Shown here one piece after another: positions 28,024 through 43,548 of a stretch of DNA of 64,000 nt. Both the position numbers and the translations under genes were made by a program. Source of the stretch: Vreelandella titanicae BH1 (GTDB lineage Bacteria > Pseudomonadota > Gammaproteobacteria > Pseudomonadales > Halomonadaceae). Below the pieces are notes generated by a model. It saw only the letters and a list, made by a program, of their open reading frames with translations, did no database searches and was not told where the DNA came from. The stretch lies in NCBI RefSeq assembly GCF_000336575.1, contig NZ_AOPO01000004.1, forward strand, positions 186,001-250,000. The letters are read 5' to 3'. Each line of letters opens with the position of its first letter. Within the stretch, counting starts at the first letter, position 1.

Positions 28024-28164
28024 GACTTTGTACGAAAAGTCGGCGAGCGAAGGTCAGGCAAGGCAAAAAACGGCGAAAAAGCGGAGTTTACGGAGTGTAA
28101 ATGAGCATTTTGAGCCGTTTTTTAACGCAGCATGGCCGAGCACAGGCAGTTTTCGTACAAAGCC
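28024..28164. repeat. TA-flanked miniature inverted-repeat element, copy 1
   Basis: A 141-bp sequence with terminal inverted repeats (left GACTTTGTACGAAAA, right reading inward GGCTTTGTACGAAAA) flanked by TA on both sides. The inner arms (GTCGGCGAGCGAAGG and its counterpart) also recur in the copies at 30034-30205 and 32436-32565. It has no coding capacity. This is the structure of a MITE moved in trans by a transposase that targets TA. Confidence 0.8.
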
Positions 28165-28246
28165 TAACGCTAAAGCCTACCTTCACCGATGCTTATATAG
28201 CGCAATTTTGCTGCCTTCATTCCCAAAAAATTGAATTAATTGTTTT

Positions 28247-28807
28247 CTAGGCTTTGAAGTTGGGTGGAGTGTCCCAAAGCTGCACCTCGATATAGAGCTC
28301 AAAATCTGTTTCCCAATAGCGCTCGTAAGGAATCTCGTGATCATTGGCAGGAATACCGAAGCGTGTAACGAGCCTACTCACCTCATTAAGCAGAAACACT
28401 TGATTGTAGTAAGGCTTGTCGTCTCGGGTTAGCGCAATAAAGCTATCCGGGTAAGTCAAAGACGTTACTTCGGGGTCGAGCTCAGAGAGAGGGATTCTAA
28501 GCTCACCTTGGTTCGCGTTCAGGTCACGAAACCAAGGGGATTCTCCAAGCACTAGATAGAAGGGATGATCACGGCGCGGTTTACCTCCACGCGCAACGAA
28601 GAGTTCTCGCAGCCGAGCTTCAACCTCACGTCGGACTCCTATGTAATTCCTACCGTAGCGCCGCCGGTAACCGGGATCACGCTGATGACGAGTTAGGATA
28701 TCTTGAAATACAGGATCTTCCGAGCTCGCAGGAAGCTCTGAGAGACTCCGAAACGGGCCAGTCTCTCGCAAATAATAGTGTGTAGCAAAATCTGGGGGTC
28801 TACTCAC
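28247..28807 (-). CDS. Conserved hypothetical protein
   Basis: This 186-residue soluble protein contains no motif I recognise. It is rich in charged residues and has a tyrosine- and arginine-rich segment (DPGYRRRYGRNYIG). The C-terminus is acidic and aromatic (YERYWETDFELYIEVQLWD). A short stretch of DNA near 25097-25127 resembles its 3' end (WGVxLIEV region), suggesting that a second copy once lay upstream of the GFA gene. Function unknown. Confidence 0.65.
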   Translation of the reverse strand: MSRPPDFATHYYLRETGPFRSLSELPASSEDPVFQDILTRHQRDPGYRRRYGRNYIGVRREVEARLRELFVARGGKPRRDHPFYLVLGESPWFRDLNANQGELRIPLSELDPEVTSLTYPDSFIALTRDDKPYYNQVFLLNEVSRLVTRFGIPANDHEIPYERYWETDFELYIEVQLWDTPPNFKA

Positions 28808-28872
28808 TGTTTCATGCCTTCGGCCAAGCTAATAGCCATCAAACGCCCCGTTGAGCGACATATCAAAGCAAC

Positions 28873-29316
28873 TTATTGACACGCCCTAGCCTGGCTAATG
28901 AAATCCTCTAGAAAGGCCATCGCCCGCTCAACATCTCGTTCATAAATAAACAGGTGATCGAATACGGCACCACACTGCGGGCCAGCTTTAATGCCGTGTT
29001 CATTTAGCACTCGCAGAACAGGGCCGAGAAAACCAATCACATCGAAAGGAAGCTCGCCATCCGTTGATACAACTCGAAACGGGCCGAAGCTATCTCTTAT
29101 CGAGACCTCAGTTTTTAAGCGTTCAAGAGCCGCCTCGTCGACTATCGCGGATACACCTGCCTGATCGCGAATTAAACAGCTGTACCGAGCATCGCTTGCC
29201 ACGAACACGTTAGCCACATCTTGAGCGGATGTATCGCTAAGATCGAACATCCAGTAGCGTTCAGGCCAGATTTTCAATGTCATATTCGCCCATACCGCCA
29301 TTGGATCTATAGACAT
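28873..29316 (-). CDS. ACT-domain-like protein
   Basis: The 147-residue protein is organised as two tandem small-molecule-binding ACT-like modules (AQDVANVFVASDARYSCLIRD and FLGPVLRVLNEHGIKAGPQC ending YERDVERAMAFLEDF), the pattern of the CASTOR-like ACT proteins. Such proteins sense amino acids; the ligand is unknown. Confidence 0.7.
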   Translation of the reverse strand: MSIDPMAVWANMTLKIWPERYWMFDLSDTSAQDVANVFVASDARYSCLIRDQAGVSAIVDEAALERLKTEVSIRDSFGPFRVVSTDGELPFDVIGFLGPVLRVLNEHGIKAGPQCGAVFDHLFIYERDVERAMAFLEDFISQARACQ

Positions 29317-29447
29317 TACACTCTCCTGTTAGACCGCCAATGACCGCTCGATTCGACAGCTGTTAAAACGTCACATCGAAGCAGCAGCTGGCCTATACCG
29401 TATGATACAAAGTGCTGCAGCTATTATATGAATTCAGGCGATTAAGC

Positions 29448-29933
29448 TCAGGACTCAGAGCTTGGAGCCTCCTGGTTTGGCCGCAACTGAAGCTGGATGC
29501 CGAGTAAGAAATTTCGCAGCACCTGATCTTTGCACTCTCGATAATTCTTATGGCTGGGCTTGCGGAAAAACGCACTTAATTCATGGTTACTTAGGTTGAA
29601 GCCAGCCAGTTCAAAAGCAGCCAAAATATCTTCAGCCTTTAAATTCAGCGCAATGCGCAGCTTCTGGAACACCATATTGTTGTTCAACTGCGATTCTGGC
29701 ACGGGCTGTGGCCCTTCGCGCTTACCACGCTTAAAGCTAATGAAGCCGTTCAAAAACGCCGCTAGCTCTTTGTTCTTCATGGTGACAAAGGCGTCGTCGT
29801 CATCCTTTTTCAGCCAGGCCGTTACCTGCTCTTGAGCCACGCTGACCTCTGCCAAGGCGAAGATATCCACGATGGTGCTGTCTTTTAAATCAAAGGTGTA
29901 ACGTATACGGCGAAAAATATCGTTATTGGTCAA
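29448..29933 (-). CDS. DUF1456-family protein (YehS-like)
   Basis: In this 161-residue protein two repeats of the DUF1456 unit are visible: NNDIFRRIRYTFDLKDSTIV and NNMVFQKLRIALNLKAEDIL, each followed by a W-L-K/F-F-R pattern. The TTG at 29933, with aggga 7 nt upstream, matches the start of YehS (M-x-NNDI); an in-frame GTG at 29966 is possible. Function is unknown in the family. Confidence 0.85.
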   Translation of the reverse strand: MTNNDIFRRIRYTFDLKDSTIVDIFALAEVSVAQEQVTAWLKKDDDDAFVTMKNKELAAFLNGFISFKRGKREGPQPVPESQLNNNMVFQKLRIALNLKAEDILAAFELAGFNLSNHELSAFFRKPSHKNYRECKDQVLRNFLLGIQLQLRPNQEAPSSES

Positions 29934-30033
29934 AATAGTGTCCCTAGTCTTAGGCAAACCCAGCACAATCAGGCTTTATGTGCATCTACGTTTATCGTGA
30001 TATATGATTAAAATCAGCAGCTTAAATAAACTA

Positions 30034-30205
30034 GGCTTTGTACGAAAACTGCCTGCGCTCGCCAATACGGCGTTAAAAATCACCTCGTGCGCGAGTCCGA
30101 TCAAAATGCTCATTTACAACCTGTAAATTCGCACGCGAATCCGATCCTTTTTTCGTTGATTTTTGCCTTGTCTAGCCTTCGCTCGCCGACTTTTCGTACA
30201 AACCC
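30034..30205. repeat. TA-flanked miniature inverted-repeat element, copy 2
   Basis: A 172-bp element with terminal repeats GGCTTTGTACGAAAA and (inward) GGTTTGTACGAAAA, flanked by TA. It is inverted relative to copy 1. Its right-hand TA lies inside the stop codon (TAG, 30207-30205) of the gene on its right, so the insertion used the TA of that stop codon. Confidence 0.8.
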
Positions 30206-30627
30206 TAACCTGTGGTCAGTTTCCCAAGCAGCTCGTCAATTTCGTCTTTAAGCTCGCCATCTTCAATTTTATTGGCCGTGACTTGGGCATTTTTAAGATT
30301 ACTGATAGCCGCATCGGTTTGGCCCAGTTCAACCTGCAACTTCGCCATGGAGAACGCAATGGATGACATGTGATCTTTTGAGTTAACGGCGACGGCCTTT
30401 TCAAAGGCTTTTTCGTAGACTGCCAGCGCCTCATCCAGCTCTTCCGTGAAGTCAGCCAAGGTTTCCCACTGCTCTGGATGATCTTTATCGGTGCTCTCAT
30501 TCTCGGTGCAAATAGCTTCCAACTGCGCATAGAGCGCATCAAAAGCCTCTCTATCCTCTTTATCGGCAGCCTTCATGAGCTTTTCAGCGAGTTCGTAAAC
30601 CGCCTTGTATATTTTGGTGTTAATCAT
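30205..30627 (-). CDS. Tetratricopeptide-like helical protein, hypothetical
   Basis: This 140-residue, mostly helical acidic protein has weak tetratricopeptide character (EALAVYEKAFEKAVAVNSKD and MAKLQVELGQTDAAISNLKN). No enzyme motif is seen; it is likely a protein-protein interaction module. Its stop codon abuts a MITE at 30034-30205, so the C-terminus might have been altered by the insertion. Confidence 0.7.
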   Translation of the reverse strand: MINTKIYKAVYELAEKLMKAADKEDREAFDALYAQLEAICTENESTDKDHPEQWETLADFTEELDEALAVYEKAFEKAVAVNSKDHMSSIAFSMAKLQVELGQTDAAISNLKNAQVTANKIEDGELKDEIDELLGKLTTG

Positions 30628-30892
30628 GAACGACTGCCTTTTCTCTATTTAAAATATAGTAACAAGTAAACAAACCTGCTGAAAATCAACGTATGTAACG
30701 AAGCCACCCCACCGTCACCGGTGGCATTATACCCTTTGGGGATGGCTCTACGGGCGATCATTTTACGGTTTTTGTGCTGGGGTGTTGGTATGTTTTGCTT
30801 GAGTGGTCGTCCTAGCTGCTCGCGCCATCAGACCACTCCTTAGAGGCATTGGAGGACATTTCAGCTACCAATGGCAAAGATTCGACCTGCAT

Positions 30893-31327
30893 TCAACGAC
30901 TTGGCTTCTGCAATGCCTGGTTAAGTGACTCCAAACTATCAGGGCCACCATCCAAACGAACACAACCATCTGATTCTGACGCCCAAGAAGCCGATGAAGA
31001 AAGGTGAAGATGAATAGATATTTGCGACGCAGTCTCATCATTCAGCAAACCAGCGGGAACCCATACCAACTCCGTGTCTCTCAGTTGGTTGGGTACCAGA
31101 CTACCGCAGACCGAACAAAAATCATTCCGATAGCCGGTTGGCTTCTGAAAGGTACTGATTTTGGATTGGCCGGAAAGCCAACGGAAGCTATCCGCTTTTA
31201 CAAAAGTGGCCGTATTTGACGCAGACCCTGTCGCTTTGCGACACAGAGAGCAGTGACATTGATAGAAGTTCGGCAGTTTCCCTTCGATTTCGAACTTAAT
31301 CTCCCCACACAGACATTCACCTTTCAT
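30893..31327 (-). CDS. GFA-family zinc protein
   Basis: In this 144-residue protein MKGECLCGEIKFEIEG, then YQCHCSLCRKATG and NDFCSVCGSLVPN supply the seven to eight cysteine ligands of the GFA fold. A classical start (M-x-G-x-C-x-C-G) supports the ATG at 31327. It is related to, but clearly different from, the GFA gene at 25185. Confidence 0.92.
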   Translation of the reverse strand: MKGECLCGEIKFEIEGKLPNFYQCHCSLCRKATGSASNTATFVKADSFRWLSGQSKISTFQKPTGYRNDFCSVCGSLVPNQLRDTELVWVPAGLLNDETASQISIHLHLSSSASWASESDGCVRLDGGPDSLESLNQALQKPSR

Positions 31328-31388
31328 TGAATATTCCTTTGGTTTAAGCAGCAAGCGGCCCTAGACGACCGCAGACCGCGAATCGCTG

Positions 31389-31814
31389 TTAACAGCAGCA
31401 CTCCATGACTAACTCAGGATGACCCGTTAATTCATCCATTTTCTCATCTAATACAATAAATCCATGCTTCTTATAAAAATTGATACTTGGTAAATTTTCA
31501 CTGTAGACCGTCAGTTGCAAGCACTCCCTTCTGCTCTTGGCATCGTTAATAAGCGCAGACCCCACACCTCTCCCCTGTAAGTTTGGAGACACAAAAGCGG
31601 CGGCCAACGTATTTTCGTATAGACTGTAAAATCCAGCTAATTGTCCCTCAGATTCAAATACAAAAGTCTCCGATGCAGGGAGATATACATCACGCATTTC
31701 ACCAACTTTTGAGCGCCAAAAATCTGATCCAATAAAAGCGTGTGCTTTAATTGAGGCTGAAAGCCAGATATCCAGCACTTGATCAATATCTGACTCTCGA
31801 TATTTGCGAATCAT
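31389..31814 (-). CDS. GNAT-family N-acetyltransferase (YjaB-like)
   Basis: The 141-residue protein shows MIRKYRESDIDQVLDIWLSA, motif A AAFVSPNLQGRGVGSALI and NLPSINFYKKHGFIVLDEK, a typical small YjaB/PhnO-type acetyltransferase. An aaagga ribosome site is 9 nt before the ATG at 31814; ATG 31820 is too close. It follows a NUDIX gene (40 bp) and may be co-transcribed with it. Confidence 0.9.
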   Translation of the reverse strand: MIRKYRESDIDQVLDIWLSASIKAHAFIGSDFWRSKVGEMRDVYLPASETFVFESEGQLAGFYSLYENTLAAAFVSPNLQGRGVGSALINDAKSRRECLQLTVYSENLPSINFYKKHGFIVLDEKMDELTGHPELVMECCC

Positions 31815-31853
31815 CTGCATATTCCTTTCTGATAATCAACTGCACCAATGGCA

Positions 31854-32318
31854 TCACGGAGAGCCATGTGATAAATGTTGCCGGTGCAGTACAGAGCCAA
31901 GTAAATCAGGAATCCACCCAGGCTTGAAGAGTGAGGGATCTTTATCGAGTAATTCGTCAAGGCTCCACCATTTCCACTGCTGAATAGTGCTCTTCTCCTC
32001 ATCTGTCCACTTTGCGGCAAACACCTCTCTGTTTGCAGGCCACTCAACTAAAAAGTACTGTTCAAGCCACCGCGCTGGCACCGATCTCGCAACGGCGTAA
32101 ACATCATCACGCTCTCTTAACATTTCTCCAACGTCTTGTGCTAAACCTGTTTCCTCATATAGCTCACGTTTCGCAGCCTCAGCATAGCTCTCTCCCGGTT
32201 TTAGCTCACCTCCCACGGTGGCCCAAAACGGAGACTGATGTTCATCTTGATATAAAAACAGCAGTAAACGTCCTTCTTCATCAACGATTATTAACCTGGA
32301 TGATTTTCTTGTCTCCAT
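31854..32318 (-). CDS. NUDIX hydrolase
   Basis: This 154-residue protein has the NUDIX box at about residues 39-61 (GGELKPGESYAEAAKREL then YEETGL), with all consensus glycine, glutamate and arginine positions. It hydrolyses a nucleoside diphosphate linked to another moiety; the substrate is unknown. The ATG at 32318 (METRKSSRLIIVDEEG) has ggagc upstream; longer open frames are unsupported. Confidence 0.92.
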   Translation of the reverse strand: METRKSSRLIIVDEEGRLLLFLYQDEHQSPFWATVGGELKPGESYAEAAKRELYEETGLAQDVGEMLRERDDVYAVARSVPARWLEQYFLVEWPANREVFAAKWTDEEKSTIQQWKWWSLDELLDKDPSLFKPGWIPDLLGSVLHRQHLSHGSP

Positions 32319-32435
32319 TTCTAATGCTCCGCTGCTCCTATAAATATTAACGTCGGCTTTCGCAACTGCAGAGATGTGTAAAAGGCCAGCCGATACACTG
32401 ACCAATCTTCGCAGTAGCAATACAATATTACTTTA

Positions 32436-32565
32436 GGCTTTGTCTGAAAAGTCGGCGAGCGAAGGCCAGACAAGGCCAAAATCGGCGAAAAGACGGATAG
32501 GACTCGCGCACGAGCCGATTTTTAACGCCGTATGGTCGAGCACAGCCAGTTTTTCAGTCAGAGCC
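32436..32565. repeat. TA-flanked miniature inverted-repeat element, copy 3
   Basis: A 130-bp element, left GGCTTTGTCTGAAAA and right (inward) GGCTCTGACTGAAAA, flanked by TA. It is more diverged than the other two but shares GTCGGCGAGCGAAGGC and the GCCGTATGGTCGAGCACAG arm. It directly abuts a broken gene (32566-32903). Confidence 0.75.
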
Positions 32566-32903
32566 TAGCTCCCTATCACTAGGGTTCACTTTGTAGCACC
32601 CTCCATCTGTGGTTAAGTCGCCACAATGCATGAACTCAAAGGTAGAAAGCACTTTCTCACCTTGCTGTAGGAAGTAAACAAACACCACCAATCACTAAAC
32701 GAGGTACGTACGGCATCGATTAAGACTTCAAAACGATCAAAGCCAATGTGCCCAATAGATTTATTCTCTTCCTAGTAAGCGCTGCTATGCCAGGAAACAG
32801 GTGTCCACTCTTCACCGTGCCCCTCTTCCGGCCCCCTCTCCTTCCATTGGGTTACGTAATGTCTCTCACTTTCCGATATCCCTTTTTTAGTTTCAACTCT
32901 CAT
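32566..32903 (-). pseudogene. Broken small hypothetical gene
   Basis: From an ATG at 32903 the minus strand reads VETKKGISESERHYVTQW and WTPVSWHSSAY, then a stop (TAG), then continues in frame (IGHIGFDRFEVLIDAV) until a frameshift near 32695, after which FEFMHCGDLTTDGGCYKV follows in another frame up to the MITE. A consistent protein across two lesions indicates a pseudogene of unknown function. Confidence 0.6.
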
Positions 32904-33029
32904 TAAAACTCCAGAACTTAACAGCTAATATAAATTATACTTAATTTCACTAAAAAAATAACTCCATCGCTGGCCAGCGCCCCCCTATGGAGGCTGCTAT
33001 GCTTGTTACTGAACATGGCGGTTTAAATT

Positions 33030-33242
33030 TTATTCGGCCAACAGCCTCTTGACCTGGGCGCTCTCTTCTTCGGGGAGCTTCAGATTGCAGATAATCTTTC
33101 CTTCTGTGAATCGACTCTCAAACTTATTTTCCTCTGTAGTGATGAACGTTACTGAGATCACTTTGGAATAGAAAGCGAGGAGCAGGTCAACTAGACGCCA
33201 AGCGCTTGAATCTAATACAAGTCTCCGCTTGTCACAAGGCAT
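33030..33242 (-). CDS. Small open reading frame, possible hypothetical gene
   Basis: A 70-residue frame starting with GTG, directly after the MerR-type gene. It shows no recognisable motif (ends LPEEESAQVKRLLAE). It could be real or a remnant; I cannot decide. Confidence 0.3.
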   Translation of the reverse strand: MPCDKRRLVLDSSAWRLVDLLLAFYSKVISVTFITTEENKFESRFTEGKIICNLKLPEEESAQVKRLLAE

Positions 33243-33263
33243 TACAAATGCCCTGATGGCAGC

Positions 33264-34325
33264 TCAGTGATATTGCCGCAGCGCCGCCAGTGCGCGCTGA
33301 AGAAAATCGAGTTGGGCATCTCGAAGCCAAGTACCGCGGCGAAGTTCTGGCTCGTTCATCTGCACCTTGCGTATTTCTGCTTGCGCCTTTGGGTCCTGAC
33401 CAGCATAGCCTTGAAAGATGGCCAACCAATCCTGAGCCACCTCTCGACCGATTTCGCTTTCGGGGCTAATACCTTGTTCCAGCATTTGGTTAATACGCCT
33501 GAGGAGAGGCGGCCAATGTTTCATATAGTCGCCATAACGCTCAGCCAAGTAGGCATAGACTGACGGACTCAGGTGGCGGCGGAAGATCGCTAGCTTGTGC
33601 TCCAGGAAAGCCTGCTGGATGAAGTTCAACTGCTCCCTTTCAATGGACAGATAGTCCCGTAGAGCCTGCTCTCGCTCGGCCATCAGGCTCAGCTTACGGA
33701 GTAGCTCAGGGTTACCAGTAGTATCCTGCTCTAGTTGCTCCATCCAGCGCACCGCTAAATTTTGGGCTGAAGGAGCGGTCGGCTTTACGCCTTCGGCCTG
33801 GAGAGTATTTAATTCATCCAGCAGCAGTTGCCACTGAGCCCGCGTGGCACGCTGACGTGTGTAAAAACGCAGATCTTGAAGTTCATCCCTGGAGAAGTAG
33901 CGACTATAAGCCTCCAGTAATTCCAGAGTATTGAGAAATGCCTCAGTACTGGGTTCTGCTTCTCCAGCGAATGTATTCCGCAGCTGCTGCAAGTGATCCC
34001 TCAAGCGCGTAGCGCTATCGATTTGGGCGTTTAGGGCTGTGATGTTGTCGTTCACAAGCGTTTTGATAGAATGACGGGCATCGTCTTGCAGAAGTGAGGC
34101 GACCTCTGCCAAGGTGAACCCCAGGTTCTTAAGCAGTTGGATACGCTGTAGGCAAGCAATATCCTGAGCATGGTAGAGGCGATAGCCAGCCTCGGTACGA
34201 CCCGAAGGTTTGAGGAGCCCCAAAGCATCGTAATGATGCAGAGTACGCACGGTGATACCAGCGCGCCGAGCTAGTTCACCCGCTTGCATAGGCTTAAGGA
34301 TATCGTCGCTTTTATTTTGCCTCAT
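33264..34325 (-). CDS. MerR-family regulator with C-terminal TipAS-like domain
   Basis: This 353-residue protein has the MerR HTH at residues 13-60 (AGELARRAGITVRTLHHYDA, then SGRTEAGYRLYHAQDIACL), a coiled-coil dimer helix and a long alpha-helical C-terminal region (about residues 150-350) resembling the antibiotic-sensing TipAS fold. TipA-type regulators activate multidrug resistance on binding thiopeptides or other drugs. The ATG at 34325 has a gaggg ribosome site; another in-frame start at 34358 exists. A SAM methyltransferase gene lies 96 bp upstream on the same strand. Confidence 0.88.
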   Translation of the reverse strand: MRQNKSDDILKPMQAGELARRAGITVRTLHHYDALGLLKPSGRTEAGYRLYHAQDIACLQRIQLLKNLGFTLAEVASLLQDDARHSIKTLVNDNITALNAQIDSATRLRDHLQQLRNTFAGEAEPSTEAFLNTLELLEAYSRYFSRDELQDLRFYTRQRATRAQWQLLLDELNTLQAEGVKPTAPSAQNLAVRWMEQLEQDTTGNPELLRKLSLMAEREQALRDYLSIEREQLNFIQQAFLEHKLAIFRRHLSPSVYAYLAERYGDYMKHWPPLLRRINQMLEQGISPESEIGREVAQDWLAIFQGYAGQDPKAQAEIRKVQMNEPELRRGTWLRDAQLDFLQRALAALRQYH

Positions 34326-34453
34326 GAGCGATGCCTTCCCTCCTTCTACTTTCTCCATCAGCTCTTATTGATTGCATTGATTTGACTCGGTGTACGTTTA
34401 TCACAGCAACTGAGCCATTTTACCCAGCGCTTCCCCCAGACGCGCACCACGAT

Positions 34454-35332
34454 TTATCGCAAAGCAACAATATAATTAAATCCACCGCCGGCAATCTGCA
34501 ACCCGTCCTTACGCCGGTGAAAATATCGCTGGTTCAGGCTGGTGGTATCATTATTGTCCACCTGGGCAAAGCCCATTCCTTGCAACCCCTCCACCAACGT
34601 TGCAGGATGGAACTGCGAGAGCCAAGGTTCCCCCATGGCAGCGAATATCCGCTCAGAAACAGCGACTATCGATTGTTCGATGGGGTTGAGCAAATTGGTA
34701 GCCACACGATAGTCGAAGACAATAATCGACCCTGGAGGCAAGCCAGCCACCGATTCCAACACATTACATACCTGCTCCGGCGTCAGGTAAGGGCTAACGC
34801 CCATCCAACTAATAGCAACGGGCTGAGTACAATCGAGACCTGCCCCTGACAGCACTTCAAGCCAGCTTGGCCGCGTCAGGTCAACTGCTACAAACTGCAT
34901 TTTGGCGGGTATCGTCAATCCGGCCTGCGCCACCCGATCTTGTTTGAGCTTCAGCATTGCTGGCTGATCCACCTCATACAGATTCACATGAGGCATGCTT
35001 GCACCATAGCGCAAGGCGTAGGTATCCAAACCAGCACCAAGACTCACTACCTGAGACACGCCCCTTGCTACAGCTGCATTTAGTGTATCTTCTGAAAGCA
35101 GGCTACGGGCGACAATGCCTGCGCGCATGGAACGGGCGCTAGAGTCGTTATAAGCAAATGGGTCAGCACTCACTGCTTTACCAAGCTCTGAACCGAGCAG
35201 GGACAAGCTCAAAGGATCATCTAATACTCTTGGCTCGTCCAACAACTGATGCACCGCACGGGCAATCGCCACGCGATGGGCAGAGTCGTTGGGATTGGCC
35301 TTTGAGGTCTGAATCGTCTTCGGATCCTGCAT
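34454..35332 (-). CDS. SAM-dependent methyltransferase, leucine carboxyl methyltransferase (PPM) type
   Basis: In this 292-residue protein RAVHQLLDEPRVLDDPLS at the start and QVVSLGAGLDTYALRYG (motif I) near residue 90 are the marks of the PPM/TIGR00027 methyltransferases. The acceptor is unknown. The ATG at 35332 has ggag 8 nt before it; one more ATG at 35344 is in frame. It is upstream of the MerR/TipAS-like regulator gene on the same strand. Confidence 0.9.
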   Translation of the reverse strand: MQDPKTIQTSKANPNDSAHRVAIARAVHQLLDEPRVLDDPLSLSLLGSELGKAVSADPFAYNDSSARSMRAGIVARSLLSEDTLNAAVARGVSQVVSLGAGLDTYALRYGASMPHVNLYEVDQPAMLKLKQDRVAQAGLTIPAKMQFVAVDLTRPSWLEVLSGAGLDCTQPVAISWMGVSPYLTPEQVCNVLESVAGLPPGSIIVFDYRVATNLLNPIEQSIVAVSERIFAAMGEPWLSQFHPATLVEGLQGMGFAQVDNNDTTSLNQRYFHRRKDGLQIAGGGFNYIVALR

Positions 35333-35530
35333 TGTTAGCTCCATCGTTTTTTAACAATGCAGGGACTCTAAGGCCTCACGTTGCGTGAAGGTCAATATCC
35401 CAGAACGAATTAATTTAGTGCTTTTTTTAACCTACTAAGGCAGATCCAGAATTTTGTATCAAAACGCTAATCTACCCACCAGAGCGGTGGCATATGAGCA
35501 ATAATGGACCCTCTTTACTGTGGATTGACG

Positions 35531-35743
35531 TCACGAAGTAAATGGAAGGGGGCTCCCGAGCACCCAATTGAATAGGCCGCATGCCGCAAACTTCTTGCTG
35601 ACTTGCATCACGCGCTGGCCTAAATAACGCGCAGCGAACAAGTCTGTGTCATCTAAAACACCGTCTACTGAATGAGCGATAAGCCCAGATTGCGCTCCTA
35701 GTCTGTTACGCATTTCAGGATCGTAGTTGCCTGGGATATCCAA
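35531..35743 (-). pseudogene. C-terminal fragment of an NAD(P)H-dependent flavin oxidoreductase-like gene
   Basis: The 70-codon frame (IPGNYDPEMRNRLGAQSG, then DLFAARYLGQRVMQVSKK) looks like the C-terminus of an NAD(P)H-dependent FMN reductase or flavodoxin-type oxidoreductase, but the flavin-binding N-terminus is missing. It lies 17 bp beyond the broken VOC gene and is presumably a relic. Assignment is tentative. Confidence 0.45.
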
Positions 35744-35759
35744 ACCTACCCATAGTTCA

Positions 35760-36153
35760 TCACACCTCCCCCTTCCGTTGTTGCACTGCTTGTTGCTGCG
35801 TTTCTCCCTGCGTTACGGGTTGCTGAGCATCGCGGTTTAAATTCCGCTCGGCCGGTATATCGTTCAGGTACTCGACAAACTCCACTTCAAAACCGGCCGG
35901 ATCGACAAAATAGACATTTTTGCGAAACGGCTCTACAGCTCCTGGTTTCGCAATGGCATAACCCGCGTTATTCAACCTGGCCACAACGGCATCAAGGTTA
36001 TCGGTCACATAGGCAAAATGGGCTAAGCCAACGCTGTGGCCTTTCAAATCGGGGTTCGCCCCTTCGCCGTTATCGCTTAACGCCAGGTAATGTTCGTCGT
36101 CACCAAAGTGCACCCACTTGCGTGGCTTGCCATATCACTCGCCATGGCCTTCA
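35760..36153 (-). pseudogene. Broken duplicate of the VOC-family gene
   Basis: The sequence from about 36153 down to 35830 matches the intact VOC gene at 40363-40800 at more than nine bases in ten. The first third (about 45 codons) is missing: homology begins exactly where the lodB-like gene ends. One tryptophan codon (TGG in GEWYGKP) is TGA here, a nonsense mutation. The 3' end extends into a different tail (TQGETQQQAVQQRKGEV). A partial duplication disrupted by the insertion of the adjacent locus is the simplest explanation. Confidence 0.9.
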
Positions 36154-36155
36154 AT

Positions 36156-37238
36156 TCACTGCCTCCGTTGCCAGAAGGCCTCCTGACTGAAACGCCTTGG
36201 CCCCTGATAGCTGGCCTTGAGATGCCAGAGATAGCGCTGGCTAACCGCCTGCATCTCCTGCTGGTAGGCACCCAGTGATTGGTGCAAACCAGACTCGATA
36301 GCCTTGGCCGCACTGGCTGCCGAGGCCAGGGAATGAAAGAGCCCTTGGGAAGCGAGTGGATCGAAAGCCAGCAGGGCATCACCGATGGCCAGAAATCCCG
36401 ATCCCGCCTTCGGCAACTGGTCTACTTCCAACAGAGAAGTGCCAGCCGGTCGCCCGCGTACACGGGCAGGAGCCAGCCCCTCCAACACCTCTGCCAACAG
36501 AGCATGCTCCCTGGCTCGGGCCAGAAGGGCGTCGGGGAGGCGCAGCAGCTGACGGCTCAGCGGATCATCGATGTCCATGTGGTAGGCCAACACCCGCTGC
36601 CCATGAGGCAGAGGCACCGTATACCACCAGCCACGGGCATCCGCCTGAATACGCATAGTAGCGTCCTGGCTCTCAGCCGCTTGATCCAGGAAACTGTAGA
36701 GACACATCAGAGGATCATCGGCGTAGCGCCGTAATCCCAATCGGCTCCCCAAGTGCCCACTGCGGCCCGTGGCGTCAACCAACACCGGCGCCCTGAACGA
36801 TCCCAGTGTCGTATCCAGGAGCCACTGGCCCTGACGATGGCGGATATCCATTTGCTTGCAGCCTTCCCCCAGCGTCACCCCGGCATCTTGGGCTCGCCGA
36901 CGCAGCATCTGCTCGAATTCCCGCCGATCCAGATACCACCCAGGGCCAGCCGGATCCTGGATGGCATCCCTCCAGACCGGCTTGTCATTATCCCACACTG
37001 ATACTGCAGCGCCCCGCTCCCGGTGTCCCGCGTCTCGAAAAGCCGCCATCAGGTTAAGACGCTGCAGCAGCACAGCGGCCGCTCCCGGCAGGGACTCCCC
37101 AATGGGGCTCGACCTGATCGGGAAAGCCCGGCGTTCCAGAACCAGCACCCGATGCTCCGGCCGCAGCAGGGCGCCGAGTGCCAGCCCTGCGGGCCCGGCA
37201 CCAACAATCACTACGTCGAAGGGGCGATAGTTAGCCAT
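36156..37238 (-). CDS. LodB-like flavoprotein for quinoprotein maturation
   Basis: This 360-residue FAD-dependent protein has the dinucleotide motif VVIVGAGPAGLALGALL at residues 9-25, the substrate-cap segments typical of tryptophan-halogenase-like enzymes (SSPIGESLPGAAAVL) and the second FAD motif GSGFLAIGDALLAFDPLASQG near residue 285. LodB and GoxB are such flavoproteins, needed to build the cysteine tryptophylquinone of their partner oxidase. Its start overlaps the stop of the lodA-like gene by one base (TAATG type), as in known lodAB operons. Family membership is secure; the role in cofactor formation is by homology. Confidence 0.87.
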   Translation of the reverse strand: MANYRPFDVVIVGAGPAGLALGALLRPEHRVLVLERRAFPIRSSPIGESLPGAAAVLLQRLNLMAAFRDAGHRERGAAVSVWDNDKPVWRDAIQDPAGPGWYLDRREFEQMLRRRAQDAGVTLGEGCKQMDIRHRQGQWLLDTTLGSFRAPVLVDATGRSGHLGSRLGLRRYADDPLMCLYSFLDQAAESQDATMRIQADARGWWYTVPLPHGQRVLAYHMDIDDPLSRQLLRLPDALLARAREHALLAEVLEGLAPARVRGRPAGTSLLEVDQLPKAGSGFLAIGDALLAFDPLASQGLFHSLASAASAAKAIESGLHQSLGAYQQEMQAVSQRYLWHLKASYQGPRRFSQEAFWQRRQ

Positions 37239-39070
37239 TAGCGGCCGCGTCGTTGTTCGATCAACAGCTTCCGCATGCCTTTGTCTGTGTCATGCCGCTC
37301 CTCAGGCGTCAAGTCACGGCCGCCTCTATCTTCGACCTGCATCTGCGGCGGGAAGTCGGGATCCCCGTTGAGCCCTGGCTGCACCTCTACGATCCCCATC
37401 TGATCAAAATCAGTCACCATTCTCGCCAACTGTTTATTGTGGCCAGCGCCCAGGGTGCGATCCCAGTCGGCACGCTGATGGTAGGCAGCCAAGCGCTCTT
37501 CTCTCGGCAGCGAGTCGTTCATCACCGTGTCATAGTTCTCCTTGCTCAGTACCTGATTAGGTACCCGAGCAGGCCAGAAGGTGGGTAGATAGGGATCGTA
37601 TTCGGTGTCGTAGCCGGAGCGGCAACTGGCAGTGTCAGTTTGCCAGGGAATAGCCATCCAACGGGTGATAGAACCGGGGGATTGGCCGTACAGAGGACCG
37701 TTATAAGACTTCACCATGGCCGGAGTCAGGGTCGTGCCGTAGTCCGGCTCCGGATCTTCGGGACTGCGGTGGCGCCAGCGGTAGGGTTCCATATACATGG
37801 TGCTATGGCGTACCGGCCAGGTCATCTCACACCCCGGATGGAAAGCGTCGGCGATGCAGAACTCCATCGCTGCTCTGTCCAGCATAGCGGGCTGCTGCTC
37901 CAACGGAACCTTGTCGATACTCTCAGGTGATTGCCGATGTGGATCGTAGTCCGCTTCAAAATCCCCTTCTGCCCACTTGTCCAGAAGTGCCAGTTGGGTG
38001 GTGGTCAGGGTGTTCATAGCGTCGGGCACATTTGGCATGGGAACATTCATGGCATCGCCATAGATCCAGGGCCAAGGCTTCATGGAGATATCGCCGTCCT
38101 GGGGATTGCGGAAGCTATTGGCCACGGTGCGCCTAAGTTCGGCGTAGGTTTCACCCGGCTCGGCCAGTTGCGACAGGTAGCGGTGCTCCAGGAAGTACTG
38201 GGGCATGCCATAGCCGAAGCCAGCGGCAAAGCCCGCATTCATCCATTGTAGATCGCACATGGCTTTGAGGATGGGCAGTATGTCGTCGGTAAAGGAAGGT
38301 CTGGTGGGTGCCGGTAACTGGCCAGCCTGGATAGCCACATCCGTCATCAGCGCGTACATGGTACGCACTGCTTTCTGCTGTGGGCCGTAATTGGGCGGAG
38401 CCACCACCACCCAGGCTGGCGTCACGGTAATCGGACGGCCATCCACCAATACTGTGGCCGTCACGGGGCCGTCACTGGTGTCATCATACCAGCCGTCATT
38501 ATTGGCGAAGGTAATGGGTGGCTTTTCCTGATAGGAAGCGGAGCGCCCATGGCCACCGAATACCTGCAGGCGACCAACAGTGTCGGTGCGTAACTCCCCC
38601 AGTGGCACCTCTATTCCCATGAACGTGCCGCCCTGAAACTGAGCCACGCCGGAACAGGTATTGATGCTACGCGCTCCTGGGGTAATGGACAGATTGTGCC
38701 TATCCCGCAGAGCCACCTCGGCGTTACGACGCGTGGAAGGCGCTGCCGTCTCAGCTTCGGGGATATCCAACGCGAGCTCGAAGTTGTACCAAGCCGCTTT
38801 ATGGTTAGCTACCTCCACTGTCCAGGTAATCTCGGTGGTAGGATCCATGGTCAGTTCCCGCACTACCCTACCGTTGCCGTCGTAAGCGTAGATGCGGAAC
38901 TCGGCGACCTCGCGCTTCAAGGCACCAGTGGCGTCCCGATAGGCCCCCGGTTCCCTGGGCAGGGGCTCGGTGACCTGGGGGCCGATGTAAAAACCGTCGC
39001 TTTGTTTGGAATTGCCCACCCTGGCGATACCAATGGCCGGGTGAATTTTGGCGTAAGCGATCTCAGACAT
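37238..39070 (-). CDS. LodA/GoxA-like cysteine-tryptophylquinone amino-acid oxidase
   Basis: This 610-residue protein belongs to the LodA-like quinoproteins that oxidise amino acids (lysine, glycine) and release hydrogen peroxide and ammonia. It starts with the family IHPAIGIARVGNS. Near the C-terminus WMAIPWQTDTASCRSG holds the Asp-x3-Cys pair (Asp479, Cys483), and FWPARVPNQV the Trp499; in LodA the equivalents are D512, C516 and W581, which form the CTQ cofactor. Cys and Trp are only 16 residues apart here versus 65 in LodA, and the protein is about 100 residues shorter. No signal peptide is seen. The substrate is not predictable. Confidence 0.88.
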   Translation of the reverse strand: MSEIAYAKIHPAIGIARVGNSKQSDGFYIGPQVTEPLPREPGAYRDATGALKREVAEFRIYAYDGNGRVVRELTMDPTTEITWTVEVANHKAAWYNFELALDIPEAETAAPSTRRNAEVALRDRHNLSITPGARSINTCSGVAQFQGGTFMGIEVPLGELRTDTVGRLQVFGGHGRSASYQEKPPITFANNDGWYDDTSDGPVTATVLVDGRPITVTPAWVVVAPPNYGPQQKAVRTMYALMTDVAIQAGQLPAPTRPSFTDDILPILKAMCDLQWMNAGFAAGFGYGMPQYFLEHRYLSQLAEPGETYAELRRTVANSFRNPQDGDISMKPWPWIYGDAMNVPMPNVPDAMNTLTTTQLALLDKWAEGDFEADYDPHRQSPESIDKVPLEQQPAMLDRAAMEFCIADAFHPGCEMTWPVRHSTMYMEPYRWRHRSPEDPEPDYGTTLTPAMVKSYNGPLYGQSPGSITRWMAIPWQTDTASCRSGYDTEYDPYLPTFWPARVPNQVLSKENYDTVMNDSLPREERLAAYHQRADWDRTLGAGHNKQLARMVTDFDQMGIVEVQPGLNGDPDFPPQMQVEDRGGRDLTPEERHDTDKGMRKLLIEQRRGR

Positions 39071-39426
39071 CTGTCACTCCCTTTTTGTATGGGACGACAC
39101 CATGAAGCGAAGGTGTTCTGGCGCCGCATAGGCTCATGAATCTCTGAACTGTAACTGAAGAAATAGTAAAGCTGGATCAGCGGTACACTGCTGCTTACCA
39201 AGATAGAACAAGACAGCCACTTATTCACTGCAAAAGGTGAAATTTAATTTGGGTCTCATCTATTCAAATTGCGCTGCTACCTTTTACAAGGTAACTGGCC
39301 TTCCCCGCTTAAGGGTTTATTAAACACAACCCAACCATTATCTCCTACGATTCCCAAAATCAGTCGGTGTAAACTTATAGCTAATCTCTAAACACAGGAA
39401 GGCAGCTATACAGCCTGAATTGATAA
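39071..39426. other. Intergenic region upstream of the lodA-like gene
   Basis: About 355 bp without a gene, AT-rich, between the lodA-like start and the IS remnant. It must contain the promoter of the lodAB operon; a possible -10 (tatttt-like) cannot be fixed with confidence. A CCTTGTAAAAGGT-type short inverted repeat (CCTTTTACAAGG, 39279-39290) is the only structure I see. Confidence 0.4.
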
Positions 39427-39784
39427 GAGCTCCTTGCAAAACCCTTGAAATAGCTCACCTACGTGCCTAGCTTAGCTATTATGGCTAAGAAAAATGTCCT
39501 GATGAACTTTGGGGAATTGTTGAGCCGCTCTTGCCACTGGATTCACCCAAGCATGATGGTGGTGGGCCATGTGTTTCCAACCGTGCCGCCTTGACCGGCA
39601 TCCTGTTTGTTCTTAAGTCAGGCATCCCGTGGGACGTGTTACCTCAAGAAATGGGATGCGGTTCCGGCGTCACTTGCAACACGATAAGAGCGGCGTACTG
39701 ACCCCCACCATGCGTTCACTGTGCTGGGCAGGCTGCTTACTGATTGGCTTTAAACAGCTCACACGACAGTTTTGAAAGATACTC
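39427..39784 (+). mobile_element. Internally deleted IS5-family insertion-sequence remnant
   Basis: Frame 39501-39701 translates to DELWGIVEPLLPLDSPKHD, ALTGILFVLKSGIPWDVLPQ and CGSGVTCNTIRAAY, the N-terminal DUF4096 part of IS427/IS1031-group IS5 transposases, then stops. The sequence is bounded by GAGCTCCTTGCAAAAC at 39427 and its approximate inverse GTTTTGAAAGATACTC ending at 39784, which resemble terminal repeats of this IS group. Most of the transposase (with the DDE residues) has been lost, so it cannot move. Confidence 0.75.
39501..39701 (+). pseudogene. IS5-family transposase fragment
   Basis: N-terminal domain only (about 66 codons); no start codon in frame and no catalytic domain. 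See the surrounding IS remnant. The fragment ends in a frame-shifted tail and TGA. Confidence 0.75.
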
Positions 39785-39823
39785 AACGGAGCAATCGGCA
39801 ACAGAGGCGGTATTGCTGCGCCC

Positions 39824-40246
39824 CTAAGTTTCCGATCTTTCAACCGTTAAGCCGATTTCCTGTCCATACGAAATTTCTAAAACATGTCCATCAGGATCAT
39901 TTATGAATGCCCAATAGCCTACCGGATAGCCGCTATCAGTCGCCTCCCGGGACAATATTCCTTCGCGCCTAGCTTGGTCACATAAATCATCTACTTCACT
40001 CTTGCTTTTACAACCAACACCCAGGTGGGCAAAAGGCCCTAATATAGGAACCGGATTACTGCTTTGTACTAACACTAATACAAATGGCCGTGATTTATCT
40101 GACAACCAAACGACTCGCTTTTCAATTTCCTTATCTGTTCGCTCATGAATGACAGACATGTGGGCATAGCGCTGATAAAAATCAATACTTTGATCTAAGT
40201 TACTTGCTGATAACGCAATGTGCGTAAAGCCGACATCTATTTTCAT
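39824..40246 (-). CDS. VOC-family (glyoxalase/bleomycin-resistance-like) protein
   Basis: In this 140-residue protein VGFTHIALSASNLDQSIDFY opens the vicinal-oxygen-chelate fold with the first metal His, followed by FAHLGVGCKSKSEVDDLC and the C-terminal FINDPDGHVLEISYGQE with a metal Glu. The ATG at 40246 (ggattgata before it) is the likely start. It is distinct from the VOC gene at 40363. Substrate unknown. Confidence 0.9.
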   Translation of the reverse strand: MKIDVGFTHIALSASNLDQSIDFYQRYAHMSVIHERTDKEIEKRVVWLSDKSRPFVLVLVQSSNPVPILGPFAHLGVGCKSKSEVDDLCDQARREGILSREATDSGYPVGYWAFINDPDGHVLEISYGQEIGLTVERSET

Positions 40247-40362
40247 TATCAATCCAAAATTTCTAGTTTTAAAAAAGAGACTTTCTGGCTCGTTATTGCT
40301 TACAAACCCCTGCTTATCAAGAGCATGCTTGACTACCAAACACCGCTAATTGTCTATCTCTC

Positions 40363-40800
40363 CTACGTTGCTGTTTGCTGAGCATCGCGGTTTAAATTCC
40401 GTTCCGCCGGGATGTCACTCAGATACTCGACAAACTCCACCTCAAAACCGGCCGGATCGACAAAATAGACATTCTTGCGAAACGGCTCTACAGCTCCTGG
40501 TTTGGCAATGGCATAACCCGCGTTATTTAACCTGGCCACAACGGCATCAAGGTTATCGGTCACATAGGCAAAATGGGCCAAGCCAACGCTGTGGCCTTTC
40601 AGATCGCGGTTTGCGCCTTCGCCGTGATCGCTTAACGCCAGGTAATGTTCGTCGTCACCAAAGTGCACCCATTTACGCGGTTTGCCATACCACTCGCCAT
40701 GGCCTTCATCGCGTACCCGCCAATGCGGGAATACGGCGCGGTAAAAATCCAGCATGGCATCCATATCATCAACGACCAGATTCACGTGTTCCAAGTACAT
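40363..40800 (-). CDS. VOC-family protein under probable SoxR control
   Basis: This 145-residue protein starts MYLEHVNLVVDDMDAMLDFY, with a metal His, then GLAHFAYVTDNLDAVVARL and VYFVDPAGFEVEFVEYL with the metal Glu. Upstream are an aagga ribosome site and, 37 bp before the ATG, a SoxR box embedded in a promoter with a 19-bp spacer, so the gene should be switched on by redox-cycling compounds. A defective copy (35760-36153) lies 4.5 kb away. Substrate unknown; it may detoxify a reactive aldehyde or a quinone. Confidence 0.92.
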   Translation of the reverse strand: MYLEHVNLVVDDMDAMLDFYRAVFPHWRVRDEGHGEWYGKPRKWVHFGDDEHYLALSDHGEGANRDLKGHSVGLAHFAYVTDNLDAVVARLNNAGYAIAKPGAVEPFRKNVYFVDPAGFEVEFVEYLSDIPAERNLNRDAQQTAT

Positions 40801-40837
40801 AAGTGTCTCCTTGCATTAAGTGAAATGGCAGGATAAA

Positions 40838-40857
40838 ACCTCAACTTCACTTGAGGT
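40838..40857 (-). promoter_or_regulatory. SoxR operator in a MerR-type promoter
   Basis: acctcaacttcacttgaggt is a near-perfect palindrome close to the E. coli soxS SoxR site (core CCTCAAGTTAACTTGAGG). On the minus strand it lies between TTTACC (-35-like) and TATCCT (-10-like) with 19 bp between them, the over-long spacer typical of MerR-family activation. It would drive the VOC gene at 40363-40800; the soxR gene lies on the other side, starting at 40905. Confidence 0.9.
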
Positions 40858-40904
40858 AAAGCTGTTTTTGGAAAAAAATGGCAAAAAAGATTCAGGAGTG
40901 CGTG

Positions 40905-41387
40905 ATGGCAGAGGCAATTTGGAGTGTTGGCAAGGTGGCAAAGCGCTGCGGCATTAAAGTCAGTACCTTGCACTTTTACGAACAGCAAGGCCTGATCCAA
41001 AGCTGGCGCAATGCGGGCAACCAGCGCCGTTACAAACCAGAAGTACTTAGGCGGATTTCGGTGATTAAAGCCGCGCAGAAAGTCGGCGTCAGTCTGGATG
41101 AGATCAAGCGAGCTTTTGAATCACTGCCCAATAACCGCACACCGACGGTTGAAGACTGGCAACAGCTTTCAAAAAACTGGCAGCAGATGCTTGATGGCCG
41201 GATTGCTTATCTGCAAAAGCTGCGTAATAACCTGGCAGGCTGTATCGGCTGCGGCTGTCTGAGCATGACCAGTTGCCCGCTCTATAACCCGGACGACAAG
41301 TTGGCGGAATCAGGTAGCGGCCCGGTGCTTCTCGATCAGGCAGAACAGAAAGCGAGAGCCCAGCAAGATCCAAGCGCTAGCTCATAG
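40905..41387 (+). CDS. soxR: Redox-sensitive transcriptional activator SoxR
   Basis: This 160-residue MerR-family protein has the HTH WSVGKVAKRCGIKVSTLHFY, the dimer helix and the [2Fe-2S] ligand set CIGCGCLSMTSC (Cys113, Cys116, Cys118, Cys124), the Cx2CxCx5C spacing that defines SoxR. An aggag ribosome site supports the ATG at 40905. The divergent promoter region contains a SoxR box, so SoxR activates the VOC gene and probably controls itself. Confidence 0.97.
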   Translation: MAEAIWSVGKVAKRCGIKVSTLHFYEQQGLIQSWRNAGNQRRYKPEVLRRISVIKAAQKVGVSLDEIKRAFESLPNNRTPTVEDWQQLSKNWQQMLDGRIAYLQKLRNNLAGCIGCGCLSMTSCPLYNPDDKLAESGSGPVLLDQAEQKARAQQDPSASS

Positions 41388-41423
41388 ACCTTAAGAGTAG
41401 TCCTCAATAATAGCTGTCGAGCC

Positions 41424-41837
41424 TTAATCTACACGGATGAACCACTTGGGCTTGATGCGCCCGAAGTCACGACGGGTGTTTGTTTTCAAGGCTTTCTTGG
41501 AATCCAACACCACGGTTTCCCGCTCGCTTCTAACAAACACCACCCAATGCCAGAAAGGTCTGCCCTGCTCCATCCGCCATTTGATCGCCAACAGTGCTTT
41601 ATCTGGAAGGCGCTCCCAGGTATCAAATGGCGCCTCCATAGGTGCAGCCGTGATTCCCAAAGCACGCAAGAGCTTACGAACGTACTCGGTGTCTGACCAA
41701 AGCGCTGTGTCTTCGGCATAGATACCCAAAGCGTTTGCTTTTTCTTTGGCCTGCGCATAGCTAATGCCCGCAAGAGCAGCGCATGCTGCGATGCCACAGC
41801 CGGATATTTCTTCTTGAATGACGGGGTTCATTTGCAT
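41424..41837 (-). CDS. Stand-alone C39-like papain-fold peptidase domain protein
   Basis: In this 137-residue protein the Cys of SGCGIAACAALAGISYAQA near residue 13 and the His-containing FWHWVVFVRSERETVVLDS near residue 94 match the Cys-His(-Asp) arrangement of bacteriocin-processing C39 peptidases. No transporter or leader gene is next to it. Such stand-alone C39-like proteins have an unknown role; it may cleave a small peptide. Confidence 0.75.
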   Translation of the reverse strand: MQMNPVIQEEISGCGIAACAALAGISYAQAKEKANALGIYAEDTALWSDTEYVRKLLRALGITAAPMEAPFDTWERLPDKALLAIKWRMEQGRPFWHWVVFVRSERETVVLDSKKALKTNTRRDFGRIKPKWFIRVD

Positions 41838-41938
41838 ATTGATTAACGTTTGCTATAAATGGTGCGAGGAACAAGCGTTCAACGACCTAAATAATTGAAT
41901 TTAATTGCATTTTTATTTCGCTAACTCACGATCTAACT

Positions 41939-42076
41939 TCAATTACCCTGAGACTCCACTTTCGCCAATTTCTTCTCTAGCTTAACAACTTTAGAAAATG
42001 AAATGATGCCAAAAACAAACCCCAAGATGCCCATCGACATTCCCATAATTCCAAAAATGAATCCTATATCGCCCAT
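41939..42076 (-). CDS. Small membrane protein, 45 residues
   Basis: The reading frame is preceded by ggagag 8 nt before the ATG and encodes a glycine/methionine-rich hydrophobic N-terminal stretch (IGFIFGIMGMSMGILGFVFG) followed by a charged, helical tail (KVVKLEKKLAKVESQGN). The design (one membrane helix plus basic coiled tail) and the ribosome site make it a credible small protein; function unknown. Confidence 0.55.
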   Translation of the reverse strand: MGDIGFIFGIMGMSMGILGFVFGIISFSKVVKLEKKLAKVESQGN

Positions 42077-42295
42077 GTTATCTCTCCGATTTTAAAGCTA
42101 ATTCTGACCAATATTAGCGTACTATAAAGCATCACTTACCATTCATTTAATGAATGCCTTTAATTTCATCACAAAAGTCGCCGTTCAGCACTATGAAGCT
42201 AATTGCCCTGTTCGAGCAACGAGCGGCTGCTTTTACGCTATACTGCATCATTTTTCATTTTCGACACACCTTACGACCATCGGTCAGAGCTCCTA

Positions 42296-43492
42296 ATGCC
42301 ATTTTCAAAACTAGGATTATCCAGTCCTCTTGTTCAAGCGATTACCGAACTAGGTTACAAAACGCCAACGCCCATTCAGGAACAAGCGATTCCTGCCATT
42401 CTTTCGGGTAACGATTTAATCGCCACCGCACAAACAGGCACAGGCAAAACCGCTGCCTTTGTTCTGCCTCTGCTAGAACGATTCAGCAACGCGGGAACGT
42501 TACGCGGCAAGCGCATACGCGCACTGATCCTCGTGCCCACCCGTGAGCTTGCGGTTCAGGTCGAAGCCAATGTGGCTCAATACGCTAAACACACGCAGTT
42601 AACCTCCATGGCTATGTATGGCGGTGTGGATACCGAAGCTCAAAAAGAGCGCCTGATCAAAGGAGTGGATATTCTGGTCGCCACGCCGGGCAGATTGCTT
42701 GATTTGGCACATCAGCGTGCACTGCACTTTGATGAACTTAAAGTCATGGTATTGGACGAAGCGGACAGAATGGTCGACATGGGTTTTGTCGACGATATCC
42801 ATAAAATCATAGATCGCCTGCCTGAAGACCGTCAGAACCTACTGTTTTCGGCCACAATGACAGACGACGTACGCGCCCTCGCCTACGATTTTTCAGATAG
42901 CAAGATGACCGATCTCGCGGCTGAAATATCCATTTCTCCAAACGTCCGAGCCGCCGCTAATGTCAAACAATGGCTAATCACCGTCGATAAAGACACGAAA
43001 TCCGCCTTGTTGAGCCACTTGATCAACGAACAAAAGTGGGATCAGGCGCTTATTTTTACCGAGAAAAAACACAATGCAGCCAAGCTTGTTGCTCAACTGG
43101 AAAAACGCGGCATCAAGGCAGATTCCATTCATGGCGGTAGAAGCCAGGCCATGCGCGAAAACGTTTTGGCTCAGTTCAAGTCAGGCGAACTAAAGTACCT
43201 AGTCGCCACAGGGGTTGCCGCTCGTGGTTTGGATATTGGTGAACTGAGCCGTGTGGTGAATTACGATTTACCTTTTCAGCCAGAAGAGTACATCCACCGT
43301 ATTGGCCGAACCGGCCGCGCGGGCGCCTCAGGGGAAGCCATCTCTTTAGTCGACATGAGTGACTTTAAAAATCTATGTGCCATTGAAAGACGGTTAAAAA
43401 GCATTATTGAGCGCAAAGAGATTGCAGGCTTTCCGGTTCGAAAAGCAGTACCTGAATCAAACTTAAACTATAAAAAACAAAGTAATCGTTAA
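42296..43492 (+). CDS. DEAD-box RNA helicase (RhlE-like)
   Basis: The 398-residue protein has the helicase core in order: Q-motif (TPTPIQEQAIP), Walker A AQTGTGKTAA, PTRELA, VLDEADRMVDMGF (DEAD), SATM, and the C-terminal motifs RGLDI and HRIGRTGR. It lacks the long basic C-terminal tail of larger RhlE or DeaD proteins. It ends at the bidirectional terminator shared with the convergent rho-like gene. It should unwind short RNA duplexes. Confidence 0.94.
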   Translation: MPFSKLGLSSPLVQAITELGYKTPTPIQEQAIPAILSGNDLIATAQTGTGKTAAFVLPLLERFSNAGTLRGKRIRALILVPTRELAVQVEANVAQYAKHTQLTSMAMYGGVDTEAQKERLIKGVDILVATPGRLLDLAHQRALHFDELKVMVLDEADRMVDMGFVDDIHKIIDRLPEDRQNLLFSATMTDDVRALAYDFSDSKMTDLAAEISISPNVRAAANVKQWLITVDKDTKSALLSHLINEQKWDQALIFTEKKHNAAKLVAQLEKRGIKADSIHGGRSQAMRENVLAQFKSGELKYLVATGVAARGLDIGELSRVVNYDLPFQPEEYIHRIGRTGRAGASGEAISLVDMSDFKNLCAIERRLKSIIERKEIAGFPVRKAVPESNLNYKKQSNR

Positions 43493-43500
43493 ACCTTACC

Positions 43501-43536
43501 AAAGAAGCTCACCTCTTGAAAAAGGTGAGCTTCTTT
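43501..43536. terminator. Bidirectional intrinsic terminator
   Basis: AAAGAAGCTCACC-tcttgaaaaa-GGTGAGCTTCTTT is a perfect 13-bp stem with A- and T-rich flanks between the convergent helicase and rho-like genes, able to stop transcription from both sides. Confidence 0.93.
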
Positions 43537-43548
43537 ATTGTAGATATT

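Follow-up and report, generated by a model that had tools for sequence, protein, structure and literature searches.

What process placed a broken copy of a VOC gene directly against the stop codon of a lodB-like gene in Vreelandella titanicae BH1? In the window, that is, the whole 64,000-nucleotide stretch analysed here from a source assembly of 5.34 Mb, the intact VOC gene lies at 40363–40800 on the minus strand and encodes 145 aa with a PF00903 domain (49.7 bits versus a gathering threshold of 20.6). A second copy, VOC′, identified by own-genome search and alignment, lies on the same strand at 35807–36153, is truncated at its 5′ end (ORF nt 93–438 retained) and bears a nonsense change. We propose, with a probability of roughly 0.52, that VOC′ is a scar left where recombination has stacked divergent alleles at a soxR–VOC hotspot, the order of events being our reconstruction.

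VOC′ pairs without gaps with the intact VOC region 40362–40708 over 347 nt, with 92.5% identity and 26 mismatches, and because the own-genome search returns an E value of 8e-145 this likeness is not due to chance. The first-pass annotation had set the copy at 35760–36153; the upper end is correct, whereas 35760 is merely the end of the open frame and the homology stops at 35807. Its statement that the homology begins within two bases of the lodB-like stop is borne out, the first homologous base being 36153 and the stop occupying 36156–36158, and so is the extra nonsense change, which is found at codon 37 (TGG to TGA). The 5′ loss is likewise real, but it amounts to 92 of 438 nt (21%, a fifth) rather than the third that had been reported. 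Promoter region, SoxR-box-like site and codons 1–31 are all missing from VOC′, and, with codon 37 a stop as well, it does not keep the complete PF00903 domain, N-terminal strand and histidine included, of a working gene. The N-terminal histidine, which we take to be a metal ligand, is part of what is lost. The stop at codon 146 is also absent from VOC′; because the base that VOC′ carries there is present in 24 of 40 other VOC alleles, this absence need not indicate decay.

Next to VOC′, at 35582–35755 on the minus strand, tblastn locates the 3′ piece of an NADPH-dependent FMN reductase gene (residues 129–186) whose 5′ part is gone. This piece is 93% identical to the full gene of locus L114, which matches Pfam FMN_red, and is the sole DNA match within its own genome. 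A TipAS-type MerR regulator and a SAM methyltransferase form a pair at 33264–35344, between the reductase piece and an internally deleted GNAT acetyltransferase relic (32575–32903) that is full length in L114 and L117; the pair recurs in L145 with proteins 87–88% identical. A 46-nt stretch at 32994–33039 that resembles the final part of the VOC gene (74%, 3′ end) is possibly a further VOC remnant or a chance match. Additionally, a repeat of ~145 bp with matching inverted ends, which looks MITE-type, occurs at 28022–28166, 30032–30208 and 32433–32553, these three copies being among 22 matches genome-wide.

The other side of the break is formed by the lodBA block, in which a lodB-like maturase gene (36156–37238), a lodA-like oxidase gene (37238–39070) and the lodA upstream region (39071–39425) lie on the minus strand. 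In a comparison set of 82 genus genomes, one genome per species, a close lodA is present in six, the window's own included (G046 also has a distant lodA elsewhere, 39% identical), and in the five relatives the lodB–lodA block each time lies near VOC–soxR. DNA homology to these blocks covers 36159–39425 in L111 (G067) and L112 (G046), 36155–39426 in L114 (G030), 36155–39363 in L115 (G051) and 36155–39212 in L113 (G022), the last ending near its contig end; it begins at 36155 in three of the five and at 36159 in two, and the second coordinates mark how far the lodA upstream region is shared. The junction between VOC′ and the block lies at 36154–36155, and its second base, 36155, is still shared with the lodB flank in three relatives. 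In agreement with the left junction of a lodBA segment described in the first-pass annotation, 36154/36155 is the edge of a block common to five relatives. The lodB ORF of 360 aa has the same length in L113, L114 and L115 (369 aa in L111 and L112), and given this shared length in three relatives and a homology that starts at 36155 or 36159, the lodB stop looks natural. Across the junction (36153/36155) the parental sequences share, as judged by eye, at most TGAA, which is no useful homology. A break at the lodB stop would need no special site, and may mark the farthest reach of end-joining or deletion that does not harm lodB.

LodA-like quinoprotein oxidase domains are present in the lodA product (LodA_N 277.9 bits, LodA_C 154.6 bits), which scores below the NCBIfam equivalog cut-offs for GoxA (391 of 750 bits) and LodA (176 of 600 bits), as the lodB product does for LodB (175 of 400 bits) and GoxB (195 of 400 bits). 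Its alignment to GoxA keeps, in the matching stretch, a Cys and a Trp that may be those of the CTQ cofactor, and by analogy with known LodA-like enzymes the oxidase would be H2O2-forming. The same lodA-like/lodB-like pair with LodA_N and LodA_C is described for LodA/GoxA quinoprotein operons in the available text of PMC4417212, from which the window pair differs in scoring below both NCBIfam cut-offs. That survey of lodA-like operons suggests horizontal transfer for some LodA-like members, and the word 'Halomonas' does not occur in its main text as available. Our literature search found no paper joining lodA, lodB, quinoprotein and Halomonas. In G051, lodA (L115, oriented 11690–13518) is split into two overlapping frames, probably by a frameshift.

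Identity to G030 is uneven along the block. Specifically, 15 of 995 sites differ over 36156–37150 (98.5% identical) versus 194 of 1917 gap-free sites over 37151–39070, a contrast of lodB with the rest of lodBA that gives a Fisher value of 8e-22 (computed on 197/1920, gaps included). In the control pair L114/L115 the two rates are alike (78/995 versus 131/1916, p 0.36). The best breakpoint falls at 37212/37215, and none of 2000 permutations was as strong, the parents L114 and L111 having been chosen beforehand by eye. Additionally, the named V. nigrificans record L039 is 97.9% identical in lodB and 89.7% identical in lodA. This breakpoint, together with the identity contrast in L039 and G030, marks lodB as a recombinant tract from 36156 to ~37212, about as long as lodB itself and ending at the VOC′ junction. 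The donor-like tract adjoins the junction on one side and ends in homologous sequence on the other; tract and junction may have arisen in one event, or a simple gene conversion, independent of the junction, could have produced the tract.

A VOC match (partial ones included) is present in 42 of the 82 genus genomes; apart from the window's own these are 41, and in 40 of them the VOC locus was read. The one left aside, G039, has VOC in two halves at two contig ends (C16:389–627 and C92:789–993, 10-nt overlap), the pattern to be expected where an IS has inserted and duplicated its target. Eleven named loci, in 10 records, were also compared. Of the 40 loci, 37 contain soxR and 16 show a match to the FMN reductase, which is full length with an open frame in eight, interrupted or partial in five and a relic in three. 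Among the 35 VOC loci without lodBA, the reductase at VOC is full length in five (L121, L138, L146, L147 and L148), interrupted or partial in five, a relic in three and absent at the DNA level in 22. The ancestral order suggested earlier as a check, one VOC gene with the FMN reductase gene and no lodBA, does exist, but as a minority arrangement (full length in 5 of 35). In L125, L133, L134 and L140, VOC3, a further member of the VOC family, stands between two FMN reductase parts, replacing the middle of that gene.

A second VOC match lies close by in seven of the 42 genomes: the window's own, G010, G031, G046, G060, G067 and G076. Extra copies occur in three of six genomes with lodA versus four of 36 without it, a borderline difference among related genomes (Fisher p 0.048). 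In G067 and G046 the order is VOC, soxR, other genes, lodB, lodA, other genes, VOC3, VOC, soxR piece and DEAD-box helicase; all four VOC frames are open, the two full VOC genes that flank lodBA are 90.4% identical and have different downstream neighbours, and part of one soxR copy is lost by internal deletion. In G022, G030 and G051, one VOC is followed by soxR and then by lodB–lodA on the far side, with no VOC fragment at lodB, the G022 contig ending just upstream of lodA so that this side is unseen. These three genomes present what the first-pass annotation had named as speaking against its insertion reading, lodBA without a VOC fragment at this position, but their lodBA is on the other side of soxR and the G022 contig is incomplete there. 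Stacked VOC copies also occur where lodBA is absent: G010 and G060 show the order reductase relic, VOC relic, VOC2, VOC and soxR, and G031 continues the same order through VOC with a soxR piece, other genes, VOC3, a VOC 5′ piece and soxR. G031 has three VOC pieces plus an extra soxR piece; its assembly is 86% complete and 6% contaminated and shows frameshifts, and the same order is found in the named record L027. Because G010, G031 and G060 carry a VOC relic without lodBA, the extra VOC copy is, judged from these gene orders, not tied to lodBA. In G009 (named record L036), lodBA has probably been lost, since two short lodB matches remain on the DEAD side of soxR.

A possible but rather unlikely source of the junction is a deletion in an ancestral array with two VOC copies, of the type VOC–soxR–...–lodB–lodA–...–VOC–soxR, as in G067 and G046. 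Such a deletion would run from 92 bp inside one VOC through its soxR to the lodB stop, and an IS-adjacent deletion would trim the lodA side. Consistent with this, the same topology and an internal soxR-copy deletion are both seen in G067 and G046, G031 retains other parts of such an array, and in the window the interval from the end of the lodA upstream block (39425) to the start of the VOC2 flank (39777) is occupied, give or take a few bases, by an IS5-like relic. However, the DEAD-side VOC neighbour is VOC2 here and VOC3 in G067 and G046, so the arrays do not simply correspond, and the deletion leaves the end of the foreign lodB tract at the junction unexplained. Because that tract ends at the junction, we favour joining of an incoming lodB end over a later deletion in a two-copy array.

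The relic that bounds the block on the lodA side (39424–39784, plus strand) contains a piece of a DUF4096 transposase, an intact left terminal repeat and a degraded right end, with ~500 bp of its middle deleted. It is followed by VOC2, a separate VOC-superfamily gene (39824–40339, minus strand), which is the same VOC neighbour as in G010, G031 and G060, the flank from 39777 being common to these three genomes. The lodBA boundary on this side is the relic and not the intact VOC gene. A relic in this position would suit the insertion of lodBA into an intact VOC as an IS-borne or site-specific unit that split the gene, a course of events that we regard as very unlikely. The IS end is found once in the window, at 39424, and none at the lodB side with up to three mismatches, a search that also missed the degraded right end of the relic itself; no direct or inverted repeat of at least 20 nt links the two ends of the block, and on these two grounds an IS-bounded or site-specific insertion was rejected. 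Additionally, the missing 92 nt of VOC′ are not found elsewhere within 27001–46500, the relic has one match in its own genome, and lodB is joined to VOC in none of the five lodBA-carrying relatives.

VOC′ and the intact VOC were compared base by base with 40 further VOC alleles from the genus (Vreelandella/Halomonas) in a 42-row alignment, from which matches shorter than ~330 nt, including the second copies of L116–L119 and all of L149 and L150, were omitted. At 22 of the 26 differences between the two copies, the VOC′ base is present in at least one of the 40 other alleles, and the four private ones (nt 111, 175, 194 and 383) comprise the nonsense change plus three that alter an amino acid. 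Third codon positions hold 19 of the 26 differences (binomial versus one third, p 4e-5). Since the bases are mostly standing variation, the positions mostly third and the private changes nonsense or amino-acid-changing, most of the VOC′ divergence looks like variation under selection, plus a little later decay. The divergence between the copies is 7.5%, and in these alignment columns the distance of intact VOC from the alleles of other species ranges from 6 to 20%. The VOC of G040 is a little nearer to VOC′ (93.6%) than the genome mate is (92.5%). In the tree both copies fall inside one clade of eight rows (95/88), the fragment standing with G040/G006 at 80/18; the standing variation at 22 of 26 differences would speak for different lineages, but both copies share this clade and the tree does not separate them.

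A recent tandem duplication of the resident VOC upon lodBA insertion, one copy then decaying, would fit two copies in one clade and a VOC′ that is clearly a pseudogene, but with 22 of 26 differences being ordinary, mostly third-position variation between species and the G040 allele nearer to VOC′, it is largely refuted and highly improbable; the comparison with 40 alleles led us to reject a decayed within-genome duplicate as the main account, and the duplication that the first-pass annotation had linked to the insertion is unlikely. Its overall interpretation, insertion with VOC duplication or recombination between two copies, is partly supported: it holds for the block boundary and for recombination, the latter between two VOC copies being the best account, and is wrong or incomplete as to the duplication and a VOC copy tied to lodBA.

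At nt 120–129 of VOC′, four variable sites form a haplotype common only to G010, G031 and G060 (with VOC′ itself, 4 of the 42 rows). This hints weakly that VOC′ may be a mosaic (permutation p 0.009, the parents having been picked post hoc). The VOC relic of these three genomes and VOC′ were not treated as one pseudogene, being only 81–83% identical over 103 nt, and the private changes of the relic at 191 and 213 are missing from VOC′. The relic is nearer to a VOC copy of G067 (90–93%) than to VOC′, and the two may not go back to one event.

Upstream of the intact VOC, a SoxR-box-like palindrome was matched as a motif at 40839–40856, between VOC and soxR; it is one site read on both strands with 1 and 2 mismatches, scored against what we assume to be the SoxR-box consensus, and 10 of 100 shuffles gave at least two matches. 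The divergent soxR gene (40878–41387, plus strand) is assigned by TIGR01950 (213 bits, cut-off 116.9). In the soxR tree the window's gene joins G028 and G010 (support 99/93, the bootstrap not having settled), whereas in a DEAD plus Rho-like tree of 34 rows, which left out 7 of 41 loci without full DEAD and Rho-like genes, the window has no such placement and falls inside a clade of 21 rows. This contrast is, at the level of gene trees, a further sign of exchange at the locus. The Rho-like ATPase (43549–44505, 318 aa, Pfam ATP-synt_ab) has a match in 33 of 40 loci; its Rho label is our assumption, the usual Rho length being, as we take it, ~419 aa.

We propose that VOC′ would be what is left of a divergent (xenologous) form of the SoxR-linked VOC gene after its displacement. 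At the soxR–VOC locus of the genus, incoming DNA of other species may recombine via soxR/VOC or lodBA homology, while the end that lacks homology is joined to some other site. The resident VOC allele would thereby gain a second one beside it, accompanied by a neighbour of its own (VOC2 in this case) and separated from the first by cargo such as lodBA; the FMN reductase, VOC2 or VOC3 would be carried along as neighbours, each with its own allele. The old copy, here VOC′ and its FMN reductase, would be left without promoter and 5′ end and then decay. The lodB/VOC′ junction at 36153/36155 would be one such end-joining, most likely accompanying the import of a V. nigrificans-like lodB, with the direction of transfer likewise reconstructed. 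Against this reading of VOC′ as a displaced allele, both copies lie in one supported clade, so the origin of the other allele would not be far away.

The process resembles a known kind, the one-sided-homology model published for V. cholerae. For T6SS immunity-gene arrays of that species, in which homologues within one strain do not cluster, the available text of PMC5361080 proposes homology-facilitated illegitimate recombination. Those arrays, and the Rhs orphan ends cited there, likewise form a variable locus with a conserved anchor, where divergent homologues rather than recent duplicates stand in a row and older copies are pushed from the anchor; here, however, a VOC/soxR pair with an oxidase operon takes the place of effector and immunity genes, and the displaced copy is a pseudogene. 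Merodiploids of S. pneumoniae from natural transformation, as presented in the available text of PMC3784515, likewise hold a chromosomal segment in duplicate through recombination, but as tandem duplications of ~100 to 900 kb, whereas the copies here are short and 7.5% different. Our literature search found no paper on xenologous tandem gene displacement at a bacterial recombination hotspot.

More tentatively, the soxR–VOC locus of Vreelandella might act as a natural recombination trap, in which divergent VOC alleles of other species come to stand in a row with cargo such as an oxidase operon between them, and recombination between copies gains or loses this cargo without any mobile-element enzyme. 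On the reading of VOC′ as a displaced allele, a suspicious breakpoint becomes a partly readable history of interspecies gene exchange at one locus, and a case outside toxin–immunity systems in which displaced alleles appear stacked beside a newly placed operon. Its relevance would lie mainly in the study of how bacteria gain and lose small operons.
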